Positions 169-11,706 of a DNA stretch of 11,706 nucleotides are shown one piece after another; within the stretch, counting starts at the first letter, position 1; each line of letters begins with the position of its first letter. The position numbers and the translations under genes were made by a program. The notes beneath the pieces were generated by a model that was not told the DNA's origin, made no database searches, and worked only from the letters and a program-made list of their open reading frames with translations. Source of the stretch: Bdellovibrio sp. (GTDB lineage: Bacteria > Myxococcota > SpSt-1050); NCBI GenBank assembly GCA_020725805.1, contig DYEF01000035.1, positions 1 to 11,706 of the forward strand, read 5' to 3'.

Positions 169-2697
169 ATGGCTGAAAAAGAGGCTAAGGCACGGATAAA
201 GATCAACAAACTCCTCGAAGAGGCTGGATGGCGTTTCTTTGATAATGAAGCTGGCAAGGCAAATATTCTTCTCGAAAATAATGTAAAACTTACCGAAGAG
301 AAATTAAATGAGTTCGGGGAAGACTTTGAAAAAACAAGTAATGGATATATTGACTTCCTTCTGCTCGATGAAAATGGCTTTCCGTTTATTGTATTAGAGG
401 CAAAGGCAGAGGATAAAAACCCGCTTTTTGGTAAGGAGCAGGCTCGCAGATATGCAATTTCTCAAAATTGCCGTTTTGTTATCCTATCGAATGGGAACAT
501 TCACTATTTCTGGGACTTAGAAAGAGGCAATCCTCACATCATCAGCCGTTTCCCTTCTCCTGAAACAGTAAAAGGATATTCTGCTTTTAAGCCAGACAGA
601 AACATATTAGTAGAAGAAGTCGTTAATGAAGATTATATCGTCCTAACACAAAAACCGGATTATCAGAGCGATCCTTCATACACCAACGAAGAAAACCGTA
701 AAAATTATATTGAACAAAACAAACTCCGCTTTTTGAGAAAATATCAGATACTGGCAGTCAAATCGATTCAAAACTCGGTTAAGGAAGGTAAAGACCGGTT
801 CCTGTTTGAAATGGCAACAGGTACAGGAAAAACACTCGTATCGGCAGCAGTAATTAAATTATTCCTGCGAACAGGGAACGCCCGAAGGGTTTTATTTCTG
901 GTAGATAGGCTTGAACTTGAAGATCAGGCATATAAAGCATTTGCCGATTATCTCAAAAACGACTATAAAACCGTCATTTACAAAGAAAACCGTGACGATT
1001 GGCGGAAAGCAGAAATAGTTGTATCGACTATTCAGACTTTTTTATCAAAGAACAGATATAAAAGACTATTTGCACCTGACGATTTTGACCTTGTGATTTC
1101 GGATGAAGCCCATCGCAGTATTGGGAAAAACGGCAGAGCGGTCTTTGAATTCTTTATAGGATACAAACTTGGCTTAACCGCAACACCTAAGGACTATCTG
1201 AAACATATCGATATCGCAAAACTCGGTGAAAATGACCCCCGACAGCTCGAACGTCGTCTTCTGCTCGACACCTACAAGACCTTTGGCTGTGAAAACGGCG
1301 AGCCTACTTTCCGCTATTCACTTGTCGACGGCGTGAGAGACGGTTATCTCGTAAATCCCGTGGTTGTTGATGCGAGAACAGAAATTACTACACAATTGCT
1401 TTCTGATCAGGGGTATTCGGTTATTACACAAAATGAAGAAGGCGAGGAAGTAGAAGAAACCTATATCCATAAAGACTTTGAAAAAAAGTTCTTTTCTGAA
1501 AACACAAACAGGGCTTTTTGTCAGGCGTTTCTGGAAAATGCTCTAAGAGATCCTATAAGCGGTGAGATCGGAAAGACAATTGTCTTTTGCGTTTCACAGA
1601 ACCATGCGGCGAAAATCACACAGATTCTAAATGAAATGGCTCATCAAATGTTTCCGGGGAAGTACAACTCTGATTTTGCTATACAGGTTACATCACAAAT
1701 TAATGACGCCCAGCAGTTCACTATAAATTTCACGAACAATCGCCTTTCAGGTACCGCGAATTTTAACCCATTCTATAAAACCAGTAAAACCCGTGTTTGT
1801 GTAACTGTAGGGATGATGACAACAGGGTATGACTGCCCTGACATTCTTAACCTTTGTTTAATGCGACCCATCTTTTCACCTACGGACTTTATCCAGATTA
1901 AAGGCCGGGGCACAAGAAAATATAACTTTGCCGCAGATATTATTGACCCGCAATTGAAAACTCAGATTGGAGAGAAACAGAAAGAGCACTTCAAGATATT
2001 CGATTTCTTTGCCAACTGTGAATATTTTGAGGAGAAATATAATTATGACGAGGTTCTGAAACTTCCGTACATAAATAATGATAAGATTTCTGTATCAAAT
2101 ATCAGTAGCCCTTCTTTCAGCGGAGGGTACAACAGTAATAGAAGTGATGATATTGTCAGTATTCAGCAGCACATCGTTGGACCAGATGGGATGAAGATTG
2201 ACAGAATGTACTTCGAAAAATTTGAAAAGACTGTTCTTGAGCATCCAGCACTTAAAGAGCAGGCAGAGGCAGGTAAATGGAGTGAACTGATGGAATATCT
2301 TGAAAAACATATTCTTGATAAACCAGAAGAATATTTCACTCTTGAAAAGCTTAGAAAGTCAATTAACATAGACCGTCGTGTTTCTATGAGGGAAATCATT
2401 GAAAAGATATTCGGCATGATTCCTTATTTTAAGACAAAAAATGAACTACTGGATGAGGAGTTTGATAAGTTCGACAGCAGGTACTTACCAAAAGAAGAAT
2501 ATTTTACTTATGCAAAAACTGTTTTTAAAGCATATATCGTTGACGCAGAATTCAGGGCTATTATAGACAATAAGGATTTTGCCCTCTTGAATGTTTCGCC
2601 CTACGGTGAGGCTTATATGAAATTACCCGAAGAACTTCGGAAAGTTATTCCTGAATATATCAAAGATTTTGTAACAATTAATAAATTTGTGGCGTAA
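169..2697 (+). CDS. hsdR: Type I restriction enzyme R subunit (HsdR, EcoEI-like)
   Basis: This is the 842-residue motor and nuclease subunit of a type I restriction enzyme. It translocates DNA using ATP and cuts at a distance when bound to an unmethylated-site M/S complex. The N-terminal PD-(D/E)xK nuclease shows D62, E77-A-K79 and a QxxxY motif at Q91-Y95. The SF2 helicase core follows: Walker A ATGTGKT at 216-222, DEAH at 312-315, motif III GLTATP at 335-340, TTGYD at 551-555 and motif VI QIKGRGTRK at 576-584. The last 150 or so residues resemble the EcoEI R C-terminal domain that binds the methylase. All key residues are present and the length is normal, so it should be active. AAAAGG at 156-161 supports the start. 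Its stop codon overlaps a possible ATG (TAATG) of the next frame, so it is probably co-transcribed with the Fic gene. Confidence 0.96.
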   Translation: MAEKEAKARIKINKLLEEAGWRFFDNEAGKANILLENNVKLTEEKLNEFGEDFEKTSNGYIDFLLLDENGFPFIVLEAKAEDKNPLFGKEQARRYAISQNCRFVILSNGNIHYFWDLERGNPHIISRFPSPETVKGYSAFKPDRNILVEEVVNEDYIVLTQKPDYQSDPSYTNEENRKNYIEQNKLRFLRKYQILAVKSIQNSVKEGKDRFLFEMATGTGKTLVSAAVIKLFLRTGNARRVLFLVDRLELEDQAYKAFADYLKNDYKTVIYKENRDDWRKAEIVVSTIQTFLSKNRYKRLFAPDDFDLVISDEAHRSIGKNGRAVFEFFIGYKLGLTATPKDYLKHIDIAKLGENDPRQLERRLLLDTYKTFGCENGEPTFRYSLVDGVRDGYLVNPVVVDARTEITTQLLSDQGYSVITQNEEGEEVEETYIHKDFEKKFFSENTNRAFCQAFLENALRDPISGEIGKTIVFCVSQNHAAKITQILNEMAHQMFPGKYNSDFAIQVTSQINDAQQFTINFTNNRLSGTANFNPFYKTSKTRVCVTVGMMTTGYDCPDILNLCLMRPIFSPTDFIQIKGRGTRKYNFAADIIDPQLKTQIGEKQKEHFKIFDFFANCEYFEEKYNYDEVLKLPYINNDKISVSNISSPSFSGGYNSNRSDDIVSIQQHIVGPDGMKIDRMYFEKFEKTVLEHPALKEQAEAGKWSELMEYLEKHILDKPEEYFTLEKLRKSINIDRRVSMREIIEKIFGMIPYFKTKNELLDEEFDKFDSRYLPKEEYFTYAKTVFKAYIVDAEFRAIIDNKDFALLNVSPYGEAYMKLPEELRKVIPEYIKDFVTINKFVA

Positions 2698-2703
2698 TGA
2701 ATC

Positions 2704-2707
2704 GGAG
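2704..2707 (+). promoter_or_regulatory. Ribosome binding site deciding the fic start
   Basis: GGAG lies seven bases before the ATG at 2715. The upstream in-frame ATG at 2697, which overlaps the hsdR stop, has no comparable site, so 2715 is preferred. Confidence 0.6.
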
Positions 2708-2714
2708 TAAGATT

Positions 2715-3800
2715 ATGGATAAATTTACCTTAAAACCTTTACCTCCGGAGTATGATGTAGAAACAAAACCTATACTCAAACAACTCGCAAAGGCACACAG
2801 ATATCTGGCGGAACTAAAAGGTGTCGCAAAAACAATTCCTAATGTCAATATTCTGCTTAGTACACTTCCGCTGCTCGAAGCCAAAGATAGTTCAGCCATA
2901 GAGAATATCATTACAACCCATGATGAGATTTATCAGAATGATTTATTTGAGAATCTCGTTGCAAATCCTGCGGCAAAAGAAGTTCAACGCTATTCCAGTG
3001 CTGTTAAAAAGGGATTCGAGAGAGTGAAAAATGACGGTCTTTTGACCGGCAATATAATACTGGAAATACAAAATGAAATCGTCAAAAATAATGCCGGGTA
3101 CAGAAGATTACCGGGCACTGAATTAAAAAGCACATCCACTGGTCAAACTGTTTATATTCCACCTCAATCATACGATGAAATTGAGGAATTGATGAAAAAT
3201 ATGGAAATTTATATAAATAATGATGATTTGCATCCTGTGGATCCATTGATCAAAATGTCAATCATTCATTATCAGTTTGAATCTATTCACCCTTTTTATG
3301 ATGGCAATGGCCGTACCGGAAGGATCATCAATATCTTATATCTTATTCTGAAAGGCTTGCTGGATTTGCCGATTCTTTATCTGAGCAATTACATAATCAA
3401 TACTAAATCAGACTATTACCGCCTGCTTCAGGAAGTAAGGGAGAAAAATAATTGGGAAGAATGGATAATCTATATGTTACAAGGGGTTGAACAGACCTCA
3501 AAGGGAACTATATATCTGATTAGCGAAATGAACAAGCTCATGCAAAGATATAAACAGGAAATAAGAAACAATTACAAATTTTATTCGCAGGATTTGCTGA
3601 ATAATCTTTTTAAACACCCTTATACCAAAATCGAGTACCTCGAACGTGACTTAAATATTCATCGACAGACTGCATCAAGTTATCTTCAACAACTGGTAGA
3701 AGGCGGGTTTCTCAAACTTGAAAAAATCGGCAGGCATCACTTTTATATAAATGAGCCGCTTTTCCTATTATTCAAAAACTTCAATTTATATAACAAATGA
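2715..3800 (+). CDS. Fic-family AMP-transferase with C-terminal winged helix
   Basis: This is a 361-residue Fic protein. The family usually transfers AMP from ATP to a hydroxyl side chain of a target protein, or to itself. The catalytic motif is complete: HPFYDGNGRTGR at 192-203, matching HPFx(D/E)GNGRxxR. A beta-hairpin flap (STGQTVYIPP, about 140-150) precedes it. An N-terminal inhibitory motif S59-xxx-E63-N64 matches (S/T)xxxE(G/N), so activity is probably self-restrained as in class II Fic proteins. Residues about 298-347 form a winged-helix-like domain, suggesting DNA binding. The gene lies between hsdR and hsdMS, 17 bases after hsdR. Fic genes are known passengers in type I restriction loci, but their job there is unclear. 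It could control expression of the locus, modify a subunit, or act as a separate defence or toxin module. The target is unknown. An alternative start at 2697 would add six residues. Confidence 0.93.
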   Translation: MDKFTLKPLPPEYDVETKPILKQLAKAHRYLAELKGVAKTIPNVNILLSTLPLLEAKDSSAIENIITTHDEIYQNDLFENLVANPAAKEVQRYSSAVKKGFERVKNDGLLTGNIILEIQNEIVKNNAGYRRLPGTELKSTSTGQTVYIPPQSYDEIEELMKNMEIYINNDDLHPVDPLIKMSIIHYQFESIHPFYDGNGRTGRIINILYLILKGLLDLPILYLSNYIINTKSDYYRLLQEVREKNNWEEWIIYMLQGVEQTSKGTIYLISEMNKLMQRYKQEIRNNYKFYSQDLLNNLFKHPYTKIEYLERDLNIHRQTASSYLQQLVEGGFLKLEKIGRHHFYINEPLFLLFKNFNLYNK

Positions 3801-3817
3801 TGATTTTTTTTAAAAAG

Positions 3818-3865
3818 TTCGACATATCACCCACCATATGTCGGAAATTGTTGATTTTTTCGACA
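3818..3865 (+). promoter_or_regulatory. Operator-like inverted repeat plus third half-site upstream of hsdMS
   Basis: CGACATAT (3820-3827) and ATATGTCG (3836-3843) form a perfect 8-base inverted repeat around an 8-base spacer. A third TTCGACA copy lies at 3859-3865, matching TTCGACA at 3818-3824. CGACA half-site centres are 19 and 22 bases apart, about two helical turns each, as expected for dimer binding on one DNA face. The element ends 22 bases before the hsdMS ATG. It could instead fold as an RNA hairpin; a T6 run follows at 3855-3860, but 9 to 11 bases away from the stem, which is poor for a terminator. I see no clear promoter in the gap. Confidence 0.5.
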
Positions 3866-3887
3866 CAACGAAACAACAGGAGATTTA

Positions 3888-6374
3888 ATGTTAGATAATG
3901 AAACAAAGCGCAGGATTGACACTGCCCGCGATATCCTTGTTGGCAAAGTCCCCGACCCTAAAAGTCAGGTAGAGCAAATCACCATTGCTCTCGTGTATAA
4001 ATTCATGGACGATATGGACAGGGAAGCAGTTGAACTTGGAGGAAAGCCGGGCTTTTTTACCGGAGATTACGCACGTTACGCGTGGAGCAAAATCTTTGAC
4101 CCGCGTATCGGCGGACACGAGATGCTCAGCCTCTATGCAGAGGCAATTGTAAAGCTCAACCGTAATCCGAATCTTCCGCAATTGTTCCGTGATATTTTTA
4201 AAAACGCTTATCTCCCTTACCGCGATCCGGAAACCCTTAAACTTTTCCTTAAAACAATTAATGAATTTAAATACGACCATTCGGAACGTTTAGGCGATGC
4301 CTTTGAATATCTCCTTTCAGTTCTTGGAAGTCAGGGTGATGCAGGGCAGTTCCGCACCCCGCGTCACATTATTGATTTTATGGTGCAGATTGTAAATCCG
4401 CAAAAGAATGAGACGATCTTAGACCCGGCCTGCGGCACTGCCGGCTTTCTGATTTCATCATACAAACACATTCTCAAAGAAAATTCCAAGAAAATCCCCG
4501 GCGATTTACTCACGCCCGATGAACGCAAAAAAATCCTTACCAATTTCAAGGGGTATGATATTTCCCCGGATATGGTGCGGCTCTCACTGGTCAATATGTA
4601 TCTGCATGGTTTTGTTCGGCCGCAGATTATAGAATACGATACTTTGACGAGTGATGACCGCTGGAACGAATACGCCGACGTGATCCTCGCGAATCCCCCC
4701 TTTATGACACCAAAAGGCGGGATTAAGCCTCATAAAAAGTTCAGTGTGCAAAGCAACCGAAGCGAAGTCCTGTTTGTGGATTACATTGCCGAGCACCTCA
4801 CGCCCACCGGAAGAGCGGCGGTGATTGTGCCTGAAGGGATTATTTTCCAGAGCGCCAACGCATATAAACAGCTTCGCAAAATGCTCGTGGAAAATTATCT
4901 CTACGCGGTGGTGTCGCTTCCCGCGGGAGTCTTTAATCCCTACTCCGGTGTAAAGACCTCAATTTTATTGATGGATAAACAGCTTGCCAGAAAAACCGAT
5001 TCTATTCTTTTTATAAAGATCGAAAACGACGGTTTTGACCTTGGCGCCCAGCGGCGGGAAATTGACAAAAACGACTTACCAGATGCGTTGAATGTGATTA
5101 AAGAGTATATCAAAGCGGTAAGGAATAACAAACAGGAAACATTTAATGCAGACGGCAAACCCTGCGGCGCTTTACTGGTGAAAAAAGAGAAACTCGCTGA
5201 AAACGGAGAATATAACCTGACCGGGGATCGGTATCGGGTTACCGAAACCAGACGACACCAGAAATGGCCGATGGTGGAATTATGGGAGAAAACAGTAATA
5301 AAGAAAGGTACACCTATTACCAAAGCAGAAACATGTGGTGGTAATATTCCTGTAATAGCTGGAGGTCAAGAGCCAGCATATTTTCATAATGAGGCAAATC
5401 GTCATGGAAAAACAATTACTATTAGTTCTTCTGGTGCCTATGCAGGCTTTATAAATTATTTCAAACAACCAATTTTCGCATCTGATTGCACAACTATTCA
5501 AACTATAAACGAAGAAGAGTTGGATTCTGATTTTCTCTACAGAATCTTAAAAAGTAAGCAAGATGAATTTTATGCCTTACAAAAGGGAATGGGACAGCCC
5601 CATGTTTATGCTAAGGATTTTCAGTATTTTAAAATCCCTCTCCCTCCCCTCGAAGTCCAGCGCGAGATTGTGTCCGAGATTGAAGGCTACCAGAAGCTGA
5701 TTGACGGCTGCCGTCAGGTGGTGGATTCGTGGAAACCCGATATTCAAGGCTATCTGGACGAGGAACTCAAGCAGTATCTTGCAGAACATCCGGAGGAAAA
5801 AGACGAACTCAGAGATGGTTGGCCGATGGTGAAGCTGGGGGAGGTGTGTTTTCGAGTGACTGATACTATTGATCCATCTACTATGAAAGGCGAAGTCAAA
5901 TATATAGGATTAGAAAACATTGAATCTAATACAGGTAATTTAATTGGCTCTATTTTATCGCGTTATGAAGAAATAAAAAGCTCAAAAAATGTATTCAAGC
6001 AAAACGACATCTTATATGGAAAGCTTAGACCAAATTTGAACAAAGTTTGTTTGGTAAAATTTGCAGGCATATGTTCTACTGATATTTATGTCCTAAGATC
6101 AAAAAAAAATGTAATTCCAGAGTATCTTGATTTTTTATTACGTTCAGACCGTTTTAATCAACAAGTTATGCAGGGGTTAGGTGGGTCTCAATTACCAAGA
6201 GTCAACTTTGATTATATGGAAAATCTTCAAATCCCCCTCCCTCCCCTCGAAGTCCAGCAGCGCATTGTGGACAGAATCGAAGCGGAGCGCAAAGTCATCG
6301 ACGGCTGTCGCGAACTCATCAAAACCTACGAAGAGAAAATCAGGCGAGTGATTGATAAAGTCTGGGGAGAGTAA
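3888..6374 (+). CDS. hsdM: Fused type I methyltransferase-specificity protein (HsdM-HsdS)
   Basis: This 828-residue protein carries both the N6-adenine methyltransferase and the DNA-recognition subunit of a type I system. Residues about 5-130 are the HsdM N-terminal helical domain. Residues about 132-450 are the methyltransferase, with SAM motif DPACGTAGFL at 179-188 and catalytic NPPF at 269-272. HsdS begins near 460. TRD1 spans about 461-590, opening with WPMVEL and closing with IPLPPLEVQ. A helical spacer follows (about 591-640), then TRD2 (about 645-785) with the same WPMVKL and IPLPPLEVQ borders, and a C-terminal helix. M and S are usually separate proteins, so the fusion is notable, though I believe related fusions exist. 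With HsdR it should form a complete restriction-modification enzyme. An AGGAGA site at 3878-3883 supports the start. The TRD DNA is far more AT-rich than the rest of the gene. Confidence 0.95.
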   Translation: MLDNETKRRIDTARDILVGKVPDPKSQVEQITIALVYKFMDDMDREAVELGGKPGFFTGDYARYAWSKIFDPRIGGHEMLSLYAEAIVKLNRNPNLPQLFRDIFKNAYLPYRDPETLKLFLKTINEFKYDHSERLGDAFEYLLSVLGSQGDAGQFRTPRHIIDFMVQIVNPQKNETILDPACGTAGFLISSYKHILKENSKKIPGDLLTPDERKKILTNFKGYDISPDMVRLSLVNMYLHGFVRPQIIEYDTLTSDDRWNEYADVILANPPFMTPKGGIKPHKKFSVQSNRSEVLFVDYIAEHLTPTGRAAVIVPEGIIFQSANAYKQLRKMLVENYLYAVVSLPAGVFNPYSGVKTSILLMDKQLARKTDSILFIKIENDGFDLGAQRREIDKNDLPDALNVIKEYIKAVRNNKQETFNADGKPCGALLVKKEKLAENGEYNLTGDRYRVTETRRHQKWPMVELWEKTVIKKGTPITKAETCGGNIPVIAGGQEPAYFHNEANRHGKTITISSSGAYAGFINYFKQPIFASDCTTIQTINEEELDSDFLYRILKSKQDEFYALQKGMGQPHVYAKDFQYFKIPLPPLEVQREIVSEIEGYQKLIDGCRQVVDSWKPDIQGYLDEELKQYLAEHPEEKDELRDGWPMVKLGEVCFRVTDTIDPSTMKGEVKYIGLENIESNTGNLIGSILSRYEEIKSSKNVFKQNDILYGKLRPNLNKVCLVKFAGICSTDIYVLRSKKNVIPEYLDFLLRSDRFNQQVMQGLGGSQLPRVNFDYMENLQIPLPPLEVQQRIVDRIEAERKVIDGCRELIKTYEEKIRRVIDKVWGE
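5265..5276 (+). repeat. TRD1 left border repeat (WPMV)
   Basis: TGGCCGATGGTG here is identical to 5820-5831 and encodes the WPMV that opens each TRD. It marks the left edge of the first AT-rich specificity cassette. Confidence 0.7.
5632..5661 (+). repeat. TRD1 right border repeat
   Basis: This 30-base copy matches 6229-6258 at 29 of 30 positions, including 22 identical bases at its right end. It encodes IPLPPLEVQ at the close of TRD1. Nearly identical DNA, not just similar protein, could support recombination between cassettes. Confidence 0.8.
5820..5831 (+). repeat. TRD2 left border repeat (WPMV)
   Basis: This is the second copy of the TGGCCGATGGTG border found at 5265-5276. It opens TRD2. 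Confidence 0.7.
6229..6258 (+). repeat. TRD2 right border repeat
   Basis: This is the second copy of the 30-base border at 5632-5661, with one mismatch. It closes TRD2 and leads into the C-terminal helix. Confidence 0.8.
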
Positions 6375-6495: not shown

Positions 6496-7437
6496 ATGCT
6501 GAGAGGAATAAAGAATTTCATCAGGAGCAATGATGCACAGGTTATGATTGAGACTGTCTTCGTCGTCCCGCTTATGCTCTTTATGATACTCGGTATTCTG
6601 CAGCTCGCAATGCTCCATCAGGCAAGAATCCAGACCGAATATGCCGCCTATCAGGCAGCCCGCGCCGGTGTGGTATGGAATGCAAATCACTCCAAGATGA
6701 TGAATGCCGCCTTTGTGGCACTTATTCCCAATATGTACATCATCAAAGCCAATATCACGGAGACGAATACCTCGTTTAATATCCTTCAATCCCTGATTCA
6801 GGGAGCAGGAATGTGGCTCATCAATTATGCCGGCAATCAGCTGAATAGCGGCGTACTTCAGCTCGACCAGTTTCTGAACAAGATACTTGGTATTTCGACC
6901 GGTATTCCCGACCTGAGTATAGTCAATGTGTATATCGTAAATCCGAAGAAGAGCCAGATCGACTCGATGCCCGAGCCATACAAAACATGGGGAGAGGTCG
7001 ACTTCGACGATATCGGAGTCTACAAATCCGACGGCAGCAAATATACCGAAGACGAGGCGAAGAAACTCAGGGATTTCAACAGACTCTGCATTACGGTCAG
7101 ATTTTTGTATCAGATGATAATTCCGTTTGCCAACTGGACGATTCATACCGCGTGGATGGCGGGAGTAACGGGGGTTCAGCTTACCGGTGCAATCGAGAGG
7201 CCTGTAATAAGGGGGAGCAACAGCCCCGATGTCGAAGGGACGATCGGCGGGAGGATAAATGTGGGCGGCTGGGCGACATACCTTTTCGGGAGCAAAGACC
7301 AGAACCTGCTCCGTGTCCTCTGGCAGCTCAGAAAAGTTCACTTCCTAAACAGAAATTACGGAATCTATATGATTCCGCTCTGGTCGACATATACTATGAG
7401 GATGCAGTCGAATATCTTCAAGGATAATCTGGACTGA
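6496..7437 (+). CDS. TadE-like pseudopilin, first gene of pilus-like operon
   Basis: This 313-residue protein resembles the TadE family, minor pilins of Tad (type IVb) systems that sit in the inner membrane and help assemble or anchor the pilus. A short basic leader precedes A14-QVMIE19, where the Glu at +5 is the type IV prepilin hallmark; Ala replaces the usual Gly at -1. A membrane helix follows (about 20-42), then a long external part. IPFANW near 209-214 and YTMRMQSN at 299-306 look to me like motifs of larger TadE-like proteins, a judgement from memory. It has one cysteine (C198), unlike its two neighbours. GGGAG at 6483-6487 gives a good ribosome binding site. The next gene follows nine bases after its stop. 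Arg codons are 12 AGA/AGG and 2 CGN, unlike hsdMS. Confidence 0.82.
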   Translation: MLRGIKNFIRSNDAQVMIETVFVVPLMLFMILGILQLAMLHQARIQTEYAAYQAARAGVVWNANHSKMMNAAFVALIPNMYIIKANITETNTSFNILQSLIQGAGMWLINYAGNQLNSGVLQLDQFLNKILGISTGIPDLSIVNVYIVNPKKSQIDSMPEPYKTWGEVDFDDIGVYKSDGSKYTEDEAKKLRDFNRLCITVRFLYQMIIPFANWTIHTAWMAGVTGVQLTGAIERPVIRGSNSPDVEGTIGGRINVGGWATYLFGSKDQNLLRVLWQLRKVHFLNRNYGIYMIPLWSTYTMRMQSNIFKDNLD

Positions 7438-7446
7438 GGAAATCAG

Positions 7447-9048
7447 ATGTTTATAAGATTTCACAGATTTGCAAGAGATGAAGACGGACAGGCGATAGTC
7501 CTTGCCGCAGTCGGTATGCTTGTAATGGCTCTCGCGGTCCTTATGACCGCCTTCTGGGGTTATGCCGTATACGAGAAGATCAGGCTGCAGAACAATGCAG
7601 ATTCGACCGCCTATTCGCTCGCGGTTATGGAGGCAAGGGTACTCAACTATATCTCCTACCTCAACAGGGCAATGATTGCAAATTATGTGAGGATGATAGC
7701 CTTACAGTCTTTACTCTCGTATCTGACATGGGTTGAGGCCGCGCTCGCCTCGTTCCACGATATGAATTACAACATTTATGCTATGAGCTGTATGTGCTCA
7801 TGCGGCTGCAGCTGTTCACAGTTCTGCTGCAACCCCCTCTGTTTCGAGCATCCGAATCTCATAATTTCACAGACGGTATACTCCCTTGTTACTACAATGA
7901 GCCAGCTCGTCGACCAGTTCGACAGGCTCATCAGCCCCCAGAGCGGGTTCATAGGTATTCTGCAGACACAGAATCAGGCACTTGGAACTGCCCAGAGCCT
8001 GCTGAAATCGGCAGTCTACATTATGGCGCTCACATTTACGGAGGAGTTTACGAAGAAGAACGACAACGAACTCAACTGGAATGTCCTCTCGTTCATAAGC
8101 CCGCTCATCAATGGTCTTATATGGAACAAGGCTACCAGACCGAATGTGTTCTCCGAACCGGATACAAAGGACAAGAGATATGTCGCAGAGATGGTAAATG
8201 CCTCGAGATATGACAAGGCACAGACGAAGAGAGAGGGAATCTCGTTCGGAGGACTCGATATATCCTCGCTGGGAGGCGGACAGCACACCGGACAGACCAA
8301 ACTTATAGATTCCACGTTTATGAACGGGGACCCCGAACAGGATATACACGGGACTCAGTATATGAAATCCGACCTTGCAGACGGCGGAAATCTGGCGGCG
8401 TTCGACAAACAGCCGTTTACCATCGGGATGCCCTGCATCCAGAATATCGATGTATACGTCTGGGATGCAAACAATATGGGAGAGCACAAGAGGCTTAGCA
8501 AGTTTATGAAATATGATTCCTGTATAGGGTGCGGATGTATACCTGCAAGCGACGGCGGCACGACAGGAAGGACAACCAAAATAGAAGTCGACTATACAGA
8601 CCAGAATCACAGGGGGTTCAAGGGGATTACCAAATTCATAACATTCAACCCTCACGACAATCCGGACACCTATTTCGGCCAGCCGATTACCTTCTGCTTT
8701 TTAAACAAACCCCCCGAGAGATTCAAGATGAGACCGGTTTACCGCAGAAGCACTATTATGGGTGATACATATTCGGCAAATATCGATATGCGTATGGGAG
8801 AGAAGGGAGTCCTGACAACCGGTATTCTCAAGGGACTCAATGCAATGTCGCTCGCTCAGGTATATTACCACAGGCCTTATACATGGAAGGAGCAGCCGAA
8901 TCTCTTCAACCCGTACTGGCGGGCAAGGCTCATTGCATTCGGCGAGAGAGACGGCAAGATTCTCTCGGCATGGATGTCGTGGGCATCAGGAATCAATTTC
9001 CCGAGCGATATCTTAGGCGTAATTACCAAAGGACTTGTTCTGCACTGA
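7447..9048 (+). CDS. TadG-like pilus-assembly protein with cysteine-rich loop
   Basis: This 533-residue protein starts with DEDGQAIVLAAVGML, a membrane helix (about 16-40), then YEKIRLQNNADSTAYSLA, the pattern of TadE/TadG-like Flp pilus proteins. G14 could be the processing site, but the Glu at +5 is absent, so it may stay as a membrane anchor. The C-terminal stretch 484-496 (QPNLFNPYWRARL) looks like a motif of TadG-like proteins from memory. The odd part is residues 115-132: eight cysteines in 18 residues (115, 117, 119, 121, 123, 127, 128, 132). C331, a CxxCxC at 360-365 and C418 follow. If external these probably form disulfides; metal binding is the alternative. GAGGA at 7436-7440 supports the start. 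The next gene begins nine bases after its stop. Confidence 0.8.
   Translation: MFIRFHRFARDEDGQAIVLAAVGMLVMALAVLMTAFWGYAVYEKIRLQNNADSTAYSLAVMEARVLNYISYLNRAMIANYVRMIALQSLLSYLTWVEAALASFHDMNYNIYAMSCMCSCGCSCSQFCCNPLCFEHPNLIISQTVYSLVTTMSQLVDQFDRLISPQSGFIGILQTQNQALGTAQSLLKSAVYIMALTFTEEFTKKNDNELNWNVLSFISPLINGLIWNKATRPNVFSEPDTKDKRYVAEMVNASRYDKAQTKREGISFGGLDISSLGGGQHTGQTKLIDSTFMNGDPEQDIHGTQYMKSDLADGGNLAAFDKQPFTIGMPCIQNIDVYVWDANNMGEHKRLSKFMKYDSCIGCGCIPASDGGTTGRTTKIEVDYTDQNHRGFKGITKFITFNPHDNPDTYFGQPITFCFLNKPPERFKMRPVYRRSTIMGDTYSANIDMRMGEKGVLTTGILKGLNAMSLAQVYYHRPYTWKEQPNLFNPYWRARLIAFGERDGKILSAWMSWASGINFPSDILGVITKGLVLH
7789..7842 (+). other. Segment encoding the eight-cysteine loop
   Basis: These 54 bases encode C-x-C-x-C-x-C-x-C-x3-CC-x3-C in the TadG-like protein. 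The spacing is unlike the CxxCxxCxxxC of ferredoxins and is closer to metallothionein-like or disulfide-rich patterns. The function is unknown. Confidence 0.85.
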
Positions 9049-9056: not shown

Positions 9057-10184
9057 ATGCTGACGGAACTCAAAAACCAGAGAGGCTCTGCGATAGTCGA
9101 GTCGGCTATTCTGATAGTTGCGATGGTCGCAATCGTCCTCTGGTCACACGTCCTTCTGGATATTGCCCTCGCAAAGATAAAGACTCAGGAGGTAGTCAGA
9201 TATGCGGCGTGGGAGTTTTCGGCATACCAGCTTTCTGACTACAGCAAGAACGGAGGAACCCAGAGCAAGCACAATCAGCTCATCAACAAGGCAAAGGACG
9301 CAATCAGACAGGACGTACAGGACAGGTATTCACACTCGCTCGATTCGGCATACAATTACAGAAATCCGAAGAAGGAGTTCAAACCGCTCTCGCTTTCACA
9401 GTATGAACTGACAAACCTTTTGGTAAACAACAAGGAACTGACAGAGCTGTCACTCCTCAACACCATCATCAATATCATCAATATGTTCGGGGGCGGGCTC
9501 TTTGGCACGAGTCCGTTCAACAACAAAGGGTATGTCGAGGTAACGGCAAGTATTGCAATCCACGTAAACGAGAGCAATCCGAACAAATGGCAGATTCAGT
9601 CGAGGTTTATGCAGGATTCACAGAGGGGTTTCTTTCACGAGAGGATGTACGGTGCATTCAGGCAGAAGACACTCAGAGAGAAGTTCTATCTTCTGGTAGA
9701 TGACTGGGCAATGTATGACGGACGTTCTGTATATCCGAAGATGTTCTCGGGCGGAGGGGGTGGTACCTCGGCAGACAACTATGACTATCAGCAGCAGGTC
9801 GAACGTGTCTCGATGTTCGGTAATCTCGCAAACAAGATAAAGATTACTGACGGACAGCTCCAGAGCCTTGCAGGTATGGAGGGGTTCAACCCGCTTCTCA
9901 CGAGACTTGCATCTGTCAGATTCAAGAACAGCCCGACAGCAGGTCAGGACGAATCAGGGACAGTCGAACTCGAGGTCTCGGGAGGACAGAACAAATTCGT
10001 AACCGCACCTTACTGCGATATGGAGAACGGCGCTGACCCGTACTCATCCTGCACGGGAGACTACAAGAACATCCATCAGAAGCGGGGGAACTGTTATATG
10101 GGCTGCCCGAAGAAGCAGTTTGGAGGAAAATGGCTCTGTGACTTTACCCAGATGGGAGCAACAGATGAGTGCGCGAATCCTTAA
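9057..10184 (+). CDS. TadE-like prepilin with cysteine-rich C-terminal tail
   Basis: This 375-residue protein has a textbook type IVb prepilin start: a ten-residue leader ending R9-G10, then SAIVE with Glu at +5, and a membrane helix (about 16-36). The region after it (VVRYAAWEFSAYQLSDY) fits a TadE-like fold. A glycine-rich run lies near 240. The last 56 residues hold six cysteines (320, 332, 346, 350, 361, 372), an even number well suited to disulfides on the outer face. It follows the Cys-rich TadG-like gene directly, so the two products may be partners. Its end overlaps the next gene by 20 bases, suggesting translational coupling. The exact role, minor pilin or adhesive tip subunit, is inference. 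Confidence 0.8.
   Translation: MLTELKNQRGSAIVESAILIVAMVAIVLWSHVLLDIALAKIKTQEVVRYAAWEFSAYQLSDYSKNGGTQSKHNQLINKAKDAIRQDVQDRYSHSLDSAYNYRNPKKEFKPLSLSQYELTNLLVNNKELTELSLLNTIINIINMFGGGLFGTSPFNNKGYVEVTASIAIHVNESNPNKWQIQSRFMQDSQRGFFHERMYGAFRQKTLREKFYLLVDDWAMYDGRSVYPKMFSGGGGGTSADNYDYQQQVERVSMFGNLANKIKITDGQLQSLAGMEGFNPLLTRLASVRFKNSPTAGQDESGTVELEVSGGQNKFVTAPYCDMENGADPYSSCTGDYKNIHQKRGNCYMGCPKKQFGGKWLCDFTQMGATDECANP
10154..10158 (+). promoter_or_regulatory. Ribosome binding site deciding the start at 10165
   Basis: GGGAG lies six bases before the ATG at 10165, inside the preceding gene. It favours this start over the in-frame ATG at 10120, which would place 15 polar residues before the membrane helix. 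Confidence 0.65.
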
Positions 10185-10935
10185 GAACATAATCTCCGTC
10201 GTCATTGCACTTTTTGTCTTTGCAGGTGCATTCTACCTCGGCGGCGGATTCAGATTGCTGACTGCAGAGAAGAATCAGGATGTATTAAACCCGAAGATCT
10301 CAAAGGAGATTCCGCAGTATAAAAACAAGGTATTTCTGCCTATGGGAAACAGAATCTCAGTCAACAACCTCCCTATGGAACTCGGGTACTTTACCACAAA
10401 GGATGAACTCCCGGCCGTAAGAGACGAGCTTATGAAAAAATTCAGGGATGCCGGTCTGAATCCCCACTTCAACCAGATATCCGATGAAGAGGGATTCATT
10501 CAGACCACAGACAAAAAGACCGGTGAGCACAGGATTATAATCCTCAAAAGGACCGATAACGAGACTATGGTATTCGCCGGTATTACCCCGGCGGTTTCCG
10601 AGAATCTGATTGTTAAACCCGACAAATCACTCGGTATCCCCTCCGATGCAACGAATTACATAGAGGTAAAGAATCAGGACTACGGGAGATTTGCCCGCAC
10701 AATCTCGTTTCAGATGAAAGGGGGAAGAGATAAGAATATTGCTCTCTACAAAGAGAGCCTCAGAAATCTGGGATTCGGGGAGAACGACTATTTCAGGAAG
10801 ATAAATGATGAGGGAGTACTTGCATTCGGCAGGGAGAATATACAGATAATGGCAGTCATTACCGAGTCAGAGGATGAAAAAGGCGAGACCGTTACATCTT
10901 TCGTACTCAATGTGATGGAGAAGAAGGATGAGTAA
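10165..10935 (+). CDS. Membrane-anchored protein with two similar halves, unknown function
   Basis: I do not recognise this 256-residue protein. A hydrophobic segment (about 8-28) after a short basic start should anchor it in the inner membrane with the rest outside. The external part contains two stretches with the same apparent order, strand-helix-strand-strand: about 64-140 and 176-251. Matching landmarks are RDAGL (94-98) with RNLGF (200-204), and FNQISDEEGF (102-111) with FRKINDEGVL (210-219). This suggests an ancient internal duplication. It has no cysteines. It overlaps the gene before by 20 bases and the Flp-like gene after by 8, so it is a coupled part of the pilus-like operon. It may be an assembly or periplasmic scaffold factor; this is inference. 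Confidence 0.7.
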   Translation: MSARILKNIISVVIALFVFAGAFYLGGGFRLLTAEKNQDVLNPKISKEIPQYKNKVFLPMGNRISVNNLPMELGYFTTKDELPAVRDELMKKFRDAGLNPHFNQISDEEGFIQTTDKKTGEHRIIILKRTDNETMVFAGITPAVSENLIVKPDKSLGIPSDATNYIEVKNQDYGRFARTISFQMKGGRDKNIALYKESLRNLGFGENDYFRKINDEGVLAFGRENIQIMAVITESEDEKGETVTSFVLNVMEKKDE

Positions 10936-11113
10936 GATCAGAGAACTCCTGCACGGTGAAGACGGACAGGCACTGACCGAATATATGTTTGTCAGCGTTT
11001 CCCTTCTGGTCGGATTTCTGGTGGTCTGGCAGTTTGTCGGCGGAAGATTTATGCGGGCCTTTCAGTTCTACATAGACGTATTCTACGCCATTATGAACCT
11101 GCCGATACCTTAA
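10928..11113 (+). CDS. Flp-like type IVb prepilin (small)
   Basis: This 61-residue protein has the shape of a Flp major pilin: a 13-residue leader ending E-D-G13, then QALTEY with Glu at +5 and Tyr at +6, and one membrane helix (about 20-40). The Glu-Tyr pair is characteristic of Flp pilins, which a TadV-like peptidase cleaves after the Gly and which polymerise into thin adhesive fibres. The mature chain would be about 48 residues, normal for Flp. The aromatic tail (FQFYIDVFYAIM) is unusual. GGAG at 10917-10920 is the ribosome binding site, and the start overlaps the gene before by 8 bases. It is the last gene of the operon. It could instead be a small TadE-like subunit. Confidence 0.75.
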   Translation: MSKIRELLHGEDGQALTEYMFVSVSLLVGFLVVWQFVGGRFMRAFQFYIDVFYAIMNLPIP

Positions 11114-11300: not shown

Positions 11301-11706
11301 TTACTGATACATTTTTACATCGCCGCACTTCGGGCCGTATTCGAGCTCCACTGAGCCCTTCTGACTCTGTCCCTGTGCGCTTACATCGTAGTCGATCTTT
11401 GTCTTCCCGCCAGTCGGACATCCCGCTGAATCGAGCGTTACGTTTTCATACTTTATCTTCAGCTTGTATGTCCCCGCTGTGGCTCCCGGCACTCCCGCCC
11501 CGGAGACATCGAACGTTATATCATAGTCCAGCGTACCGTCTATCTTCGTATCCGAAATCGTCAGGTCACCCTTGTACACCATTGTCTGCTTCGTCCCCAT
11601 TCCGCCGCTCGTCGCATCTACATCGATCTTCAGGTCGATCTTGAATGTGTCGCCCGTAACGGTTATCGTCCCGGTAATCGCATACGTCCCGCCCATATCT
11701 CCTGAC
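11301..11706 (-). CDS. Beta-rich, probably secreted protein (3' part only)
   Basis: The reading frame is open from the window edge to the TAA at 11301-11303, giving about 134 residues. The sequence alternates short hydrophobic and polar strands rich in Thr, Asp, Lys and Gly (for example TYAITGTITVTGD), typical of an extracellular or periplasmic beta-sheet protein. It has two cysteines (AGCPTGG and GPKCGDV), which could pair. The ATG at 11694-11696 has an AGGAG only two bases upstream, and no signal peptide follows it, so the true start is probably outside the window. I do not recognise the family; a lipoprotein is possible. It converges on the pilus operon and uses the terminator at 11235-11262. 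Confidence 0.65.
   Translation of the reverse strand, partial: SGDMGGTYAITGTITVTGDTFKIDLKIDVDATSGGMGTKQTMVYKGDLTISDTKIDGTLDYDITFDVSGAGVPGATAGTYKLKIKYENVTLDSAGCPTGGKTKIDYDVSAQGQSQKGSVELEYGPKCGDVKMYQ

Follow-up and report, generated by a model that had tools for sequence, protein, structure and literature searches.

The window, as we call the whole 11,706-nucleotide stretch of Bdellovibrio sp. DNA analysed here, carries an operon of TadE-like, TadG-like, third minor pilin and small Flp-like genes. The features of this operon are collected in Table 1. The feature that concerns us is a cysteine-rich loop in the 533-residue product of the TadG-like gene.

Table 1. Features of the pilus operon, in positions of the window.
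Feature	Position	Strand	Basis
TadE-like (KilL-like) minor pilin	6496..7437	+	PF07811 2e-9, above cut-off; syntenic in 21 loci
TadG/KilN-like minor pilin with the loop, 533 aa	7447..9048	+	ORF; sub-threshold PF13400; homologues in 137/195 genomes of the phylum
Prepilin cleavage region G14/Q15 and hydrophobic N-terminal helix; +5 is Leu, not Glu	7486..7578	+	Sequence
Long helix preceding the loop, residues 47-114	7585..7788	+	AF2 secondary structure, low confidence, pLDDT 40
Eight-Cys loop, residues 115-132	7789..7842	+	Sequence; alignment with homologues
Helical stretch following the loop, residues 136-201, fast-evolving	7852..8049	+	AF2, low confidence
Second cluster CxxCxC, residues 359-364 (C359-x2-C362-x-C364)	8521..8538	+	Sequence; CxxC kept in same-genus relative
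Third minor pilin (KilM-like position)	9057..10184	+	G/SAIVE cleavage motif; synteny
Membrane-anchored protein, no assigned family, conserved beside tip genes	10165..10935	+	Homologues in this position at roughly half of the loci
Flp-like small pilin, 61 aa, G/QALTE motif; candidate KilK/KilO-type adapter	10928..11113	+	Sequence; syntenic small pilins

The preliminary description of this DNA had called the 533-residue protein TadG-like. The name is right in kind, in that the Tad family PF13400 matches residues 14-57 and the gene lies in an operon of the type described above, but the match (17.9 bits, E 0.0038) falls below the curated cut-off of 22.3 bits. We use the term TadG/KilN-like on the grounds of gene order and anatomy, without formal PF13400 membership, and the protein is probably best read as a minor pilin of the TadG/KilN type, placed at the tip of a Tad pilus. 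It begins with a prepilin-like leader, DEDG/QAIVLAAVGMLVMAL, followed by a hydrophobic helix, and G14 and Q15 are invariant in a 12-sequence alignment. The residue at +5 is mostly not Glu in the homologues too; the lack of Glu at this position is typical of subunits at the very tip, such as GspK. Two AF2 runs on a two-sequence alignment (the window protein and one same-genus locus) gave low-confidence models (pLDDT 31 and 40) that suggest no more than a helix-loop-helix, with residues 115-135 as the loop. When the PDB sequences were searched with a profile of the protein, only chance matches were returned, and the NCBIfam search gave no useful match. Good matches come from homologues in genomes of 9-13 Mb within the same phylum. 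In its own genome of 3.3 Mb, we found only one tip gene of this kind, at a single tip locus.

The order of TadE-like gene, TadG/KilN-like gene and third pilin gene is kept in 20-21 of 21 loci across the phylum, and in many of them the trio is accompanied by the membrane-anchored helper and the small Flp. The TadE-like partner has one conserved cysteine in this genus, and the third pilin has six C-terminal cysteines, all of which (6/6) are kept in the same-genus relative. The TadE-like pilin has Ala rather than Gly before its presumed cleavage site (A/QVMIE), as does its counterpart in the same-genus relative. Tad machinery is encoded elsewhere in the genome, where contig C65 has a secretin-like gene and, next after it, a gene for an FHA-fused TadA-type ATPase; this ATPase carries an N-terminal FHA-like domain and precedes a further protein with FHA-like domains (L117:5600-9264). 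As regards the needleless T3SS* cluster that belongs to the Kil predation system, the genome has one isolated FHIPEP gene without obvious type III neighbours; this FlhA/SctV-type gene lies among metabolic genes on contig C17 (L118:8039-10141), and no flagellar or type III neighbours were recognised. Upstream of the pilus operon, positions 169-6374 hold type I restriction genes, among them HsdR and a fused HsdM-HsdS, which flank a Fic/SoFic-like gene. The G+C content of this region is 35-45%, against about 48% in the pilus operon. It is probably an inserted island, because the same-genus locus L031 has different genes upstream of its pilus operon. At the contig end, a 131-aa reading frame on the reverse strand (11301-11696) possibly encodes a truncated secreted beta-rich protein.

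The loop itself was found exactly as first described: within the reading frame 7447-9048 (+), the 18 residues at 7789-7842 contain eight cysteines in the pattern C-x-C-x-C-x-C-x-C-x3-CC-x3-C (residues 115, 117, 119, 121, 123, 127, 128 and 132). The whole protein has 13 cysteines, of which three more form the second cluster and two stand at residues 330 and 417. At the protein's own Cys content, about 2e-6 stretches of 18 residues with at least eight cysteines are expected per protein, and with the Cys content of the remainder of the protein the expectation falls below 1e-8. The Cys density of residues 115-132 is thus far beyond chance. The genome-wide Cys background was assessed by DNA pattern only; the five-fold CxC pattern occurs four times in the genome, against two occurrences of a reversed-pattern control, and of the other three sites our script placed one in a reading frame, a 90-aa stretch that looks chance-like. 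A tandem repeat as the source of the stretch was rejected on a sequence test. Nor is the loop an assembly error, because the same-genus genome has a seven-Cys loop at the same place on an independent contig. The further CxxCxC cluster that had been reported at residues 360-365 is present, although one position earlier, at 359-364. The alignment column of C362 holds Cys in 34 of 70 homologues. One homologue (L075:6423-8252) has five cysteines near this place, around residue 413 of the trimmed protein (CLCLLGLGCSFCAC); therefore, the second site may also expand.

Our loop comparison covered 69 aligned homologues from across the phylum, with the loop at one alignment position. The two loops of the window genus have eight and seven cysteines (PCQGCLCTCIKACAGICC), and that of a same-order relative has five (CCIPKCYCAC). 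Elsewhere the loop count is five or six in each of two families (f5 and f31), nine in f10 and three in f25/f30. In the large-genome family f9, the main paralogue has exactly two loop cysteines (NPCAG...CP) in at least 24 sequences. A separate paralogue group (L082, L086, L088, L101, L085, L087 and L084) has six loop cysteines in two recurring spacings with His before the last Cys, namely a CCxCxxCxCxxxHC-like type (also given as CCxCxxCxCxxHC) and a CxxCCxxxCxxxCxHC-like type, and this spacing is common to two families. Loop cysteines are lacking in a group whose turn is short and of the IPGIG type, and a few other sequences have none or one. Judged from these sequences, cysteines in this linker are common, with expansion in several lineages and loss or absence elsewhere. 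How often expansion took place independently is a provisional count, given a quick tree with some long branches and several open forks. Accordingly, the loop, which lies between two predicted helices, is a hotspot that recurs and changes fast, and it is not unique to the window protein. The preliminary description knew of no such loop in Tad proteins; its absence does not hold at the family level, where many relatives carry five to nine cysteines at the same place. By the same description, close homologues of the same fold lacking these cysteines would count against the feature; here the outcome is mixed, as distant paralogues are without the cysteines, whereas the closest relatives retain a Cys-rich loop.

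Between the window protein and its same-genus relative, residues 1-100 are 87% identical and residues 386-533 are 80% identical, whereas only 14 of 68 positions agree at residues 137-204. Within residues 112-136, one of 17 non-Cys positions is identical, and the relative has seven loop cysteines against eight. When the two loops are aligned, six of the eight cysteines fall together, which is no better than for shuffled loops of the same composition (mean 5.3, P=0.41). In this pair, the Cys content is kept, and conservation of the Cys register is unsupported by the shuffle test. Across relatives, the loop region is more hydrophobic and less charged than the rest of the protein (median charged fraction 0.13 vs 0.22). 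In the window protein's own loop region of 35 residues, the low charge is marked (0.03) and the hydrophobicity is not.

With regard to the chemistry of these cysteines, the preliminary description had offered a disulfide knot at the fibre tip, a metal or cluster site, and an electron-transfer feature, and we consider the tip disulfide knot the best of the three. The number of cysteines outside the membrane helix is even in 36 of 47 lineages and odd in 11 when sequences are clustered at 70% identity (p=3e-4), and even totals are also found in 25 of 32 lineages at 50% identity (p=0.002) and in 16 of 21 at 40% (p=0.03). The genome encodes a VKOR fused to a DsbA-like domain, and DsbB was not found in it. 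This VKOR-DsbA-type fusion of 432 aa (L119:1135-2433, contig C66) lies directly before a gene for a secreted protein with repeated Cys motifs. Disulfides are favoured because the Cys totals are mostly even, a VKOR-DsbA oxidase is encoded, the setting is extracytoplasmic and no haem or ferredoxin motif is present. On the other hand, the total of 13 in the window protein is odd, as are the loop counts of several relatives (3, 5, 7 and 9); therefore, at least one cysteine has to stay free, to bond with another part of the chain or to bond with a partner. Even totals would also fit some metal sites.

Several other readings of the loop have to be weighed against closed disulfides. The loop might be a metal site at the pilus tip, a Zn, Cu(I) or similar thiolate cluster serving structure, sensing or metal capture. 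Its CxC-CxC-CC spacing is metallothionein-like, and the related paralogue group has six cysteines of fixed spacing with His before the last. We nevertheless consider a metal site unlikely for the window protein, as its loop has no His, the spacing and number of cysteines vary freely in its own clade, which is unusual for a fixed geometry, and the setting is extracytoplasmic and oxidising, with VKOR-DsbA. Metal binding is possible above all in the Cys6-His paralogue group, which makes a stronger candidate for metal than the loop of the window protein. The cysteines could instead bond to other chains, such as the TadE-like protein, the third pilin or another tip or target protein. The odd Cys count of the window protein, the recurrent odd loop counts of relatives, the single conserved Cys of the TadE-like partner and the six cysteines of the third pilin would suit such inter-chain bonds, but whole-chain counts are mostly even across lineages, and the chain of the same-genus relative has 10 cysteines while its partner still has one; we regard this arrangement as having a slim chance.

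If the loop were a drifting, unconstrained and functionless segment that accrued cysteines by chance, its varying sequence and length, the paralogues without cysteines and the chance-level Cys register of the two closest relatives would be understandable. However, separate lineages repeatedly show five to nine cysteines within about 20-30 residues, even as the remaining residues change, the six-Cys spacing of one paralogue group is shared by two families, and the DNA is not a repeat, so that we find drift very improbable. Electron transfer, or a haem or cluster site, has the high Cys density in its favour, and it is hardly credible here: CxxCH was found neither in the window protein nor in about 70 homologues, and CxxCxxC was not found in the window protein. 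The haem and ferredoxin readings of the loop were rejected for this absence of motifs, and the electron-transfer idea of the preliminary description is unsupported.

Taken as a whole, we think it rather probable that the loop is a disulfide-rich contact element on the tip of a Kil-like pilus, set in the variable domain of a protein of the KilN/TadG type. The 533-residue protein would be the large tip-most minor pilin of this Tad/Kil-like pilus, and the eight-Cys stretch would form the linker between two long helices of a domain projecting from the pilus end. Outside the inner membrane, where conditions are oxidising, the cysteines would pair as disulfides and hold the linker as a small, rigid and nearly uncharged knob. 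This knob may belong to an exposed and rapidly changing face of the tip that makes contact with the target cell or another surface. We infer the position of the loop at the extremity from the published KilN models (PMC12075869). As a more speculative variant, the apex of Kil-like tips could be a thiol element in rapid evolution, a cluster either of densely packed thiolates or of strained disulfides, which performs chemistry at the contact site (metal binding or disulfide exchange with proteins of the target surface), with the number of cysteines tuned in each lineage to its contacts; we hold this to be improbable.

The reading of a disulfide-rich contact element bears on the question of how the tips of Tad/Kil pili recognise or damage other cells. 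A contact pilus of this kind is used by myxobacteria for prey killing. In the closest relatives the hotspot remains rich in Cys although nearly everything else in it changes; it is thus likely to be a contact patch of the tip protein, and the loop offers a short mutable element for probing tip function in myxobacteria. No account of such a loop turned up in our literature searches on Cys-rich Tad pilins. Measured against the searched literature, the recurrent Cys-rich linker hotspot is new, and the pilus system itself was already known.

Among known systems, dense disulfide peptides of the hepcidin type can form four disulfides from eight cysteines in about 17 residues; they have no homology to the loop and show only that such a Cys density is feasible. 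The TadG of classical Tad/Flp loci (Caulobacter, Aggregatibacter, Pseudomonas) likewise belongs to a minor pilin set of the tadE-F-G type and has an N-terminal pilin helix, whereas the window protein has a sub-threshold Pfam match only, and no Cys-rich loop is described for classical TadG in the literature searched. The PilY1 tip adhesins of myxobacterial type IVa pili differ widely from one another in the number of cysteines and in their predicted disulfides (PMC13190605). They are pilus-tip proteins of the same phylum, but their beta-propeller fold is unrelated and the pilus is of another class.

The closest parallel we describe is the Kil (Tad) pilus of M. xanthus, whose tips can be exchanged for one another and are built from KilL, KilM and KilN, the homologues of TadE/F/G (Herrou et al. 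2025, PMC12075869). In the published models, the distal domain of KilN, with two long helices, forms the pilus extremity, and its exposed variable domain is a probable site of prey recognition; many intramolecular disulfides are predicted for all Kil tips, the Flp pilins KilK and KilO act as adapters, and the gene order of kil cluster II is KilL-N-M (PMC12075869). The window protein resembles KilN of M. xanthus Tips 1-4 as a large TadG-like pilin in the middle of the L-N-M trio, with a Flp-type adapter encoded alongside some tips, and in its probable disulfides and exposed variable domain. For the two long helices and beta-scaffold of the distal KilN domain, the AF2 models of the window protein gave a helix-loop-helix at low confidence. 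The window's operon agrees with the Kil genes in composition and in gene order, and the genome has one tip locus, unlike the several tips of the Kil system. The window protein also differs from KilN in its eight-Cys CxC linker, where the best-matching homologues from large genomes, probably of Myxococcaceae, have two cysteines.
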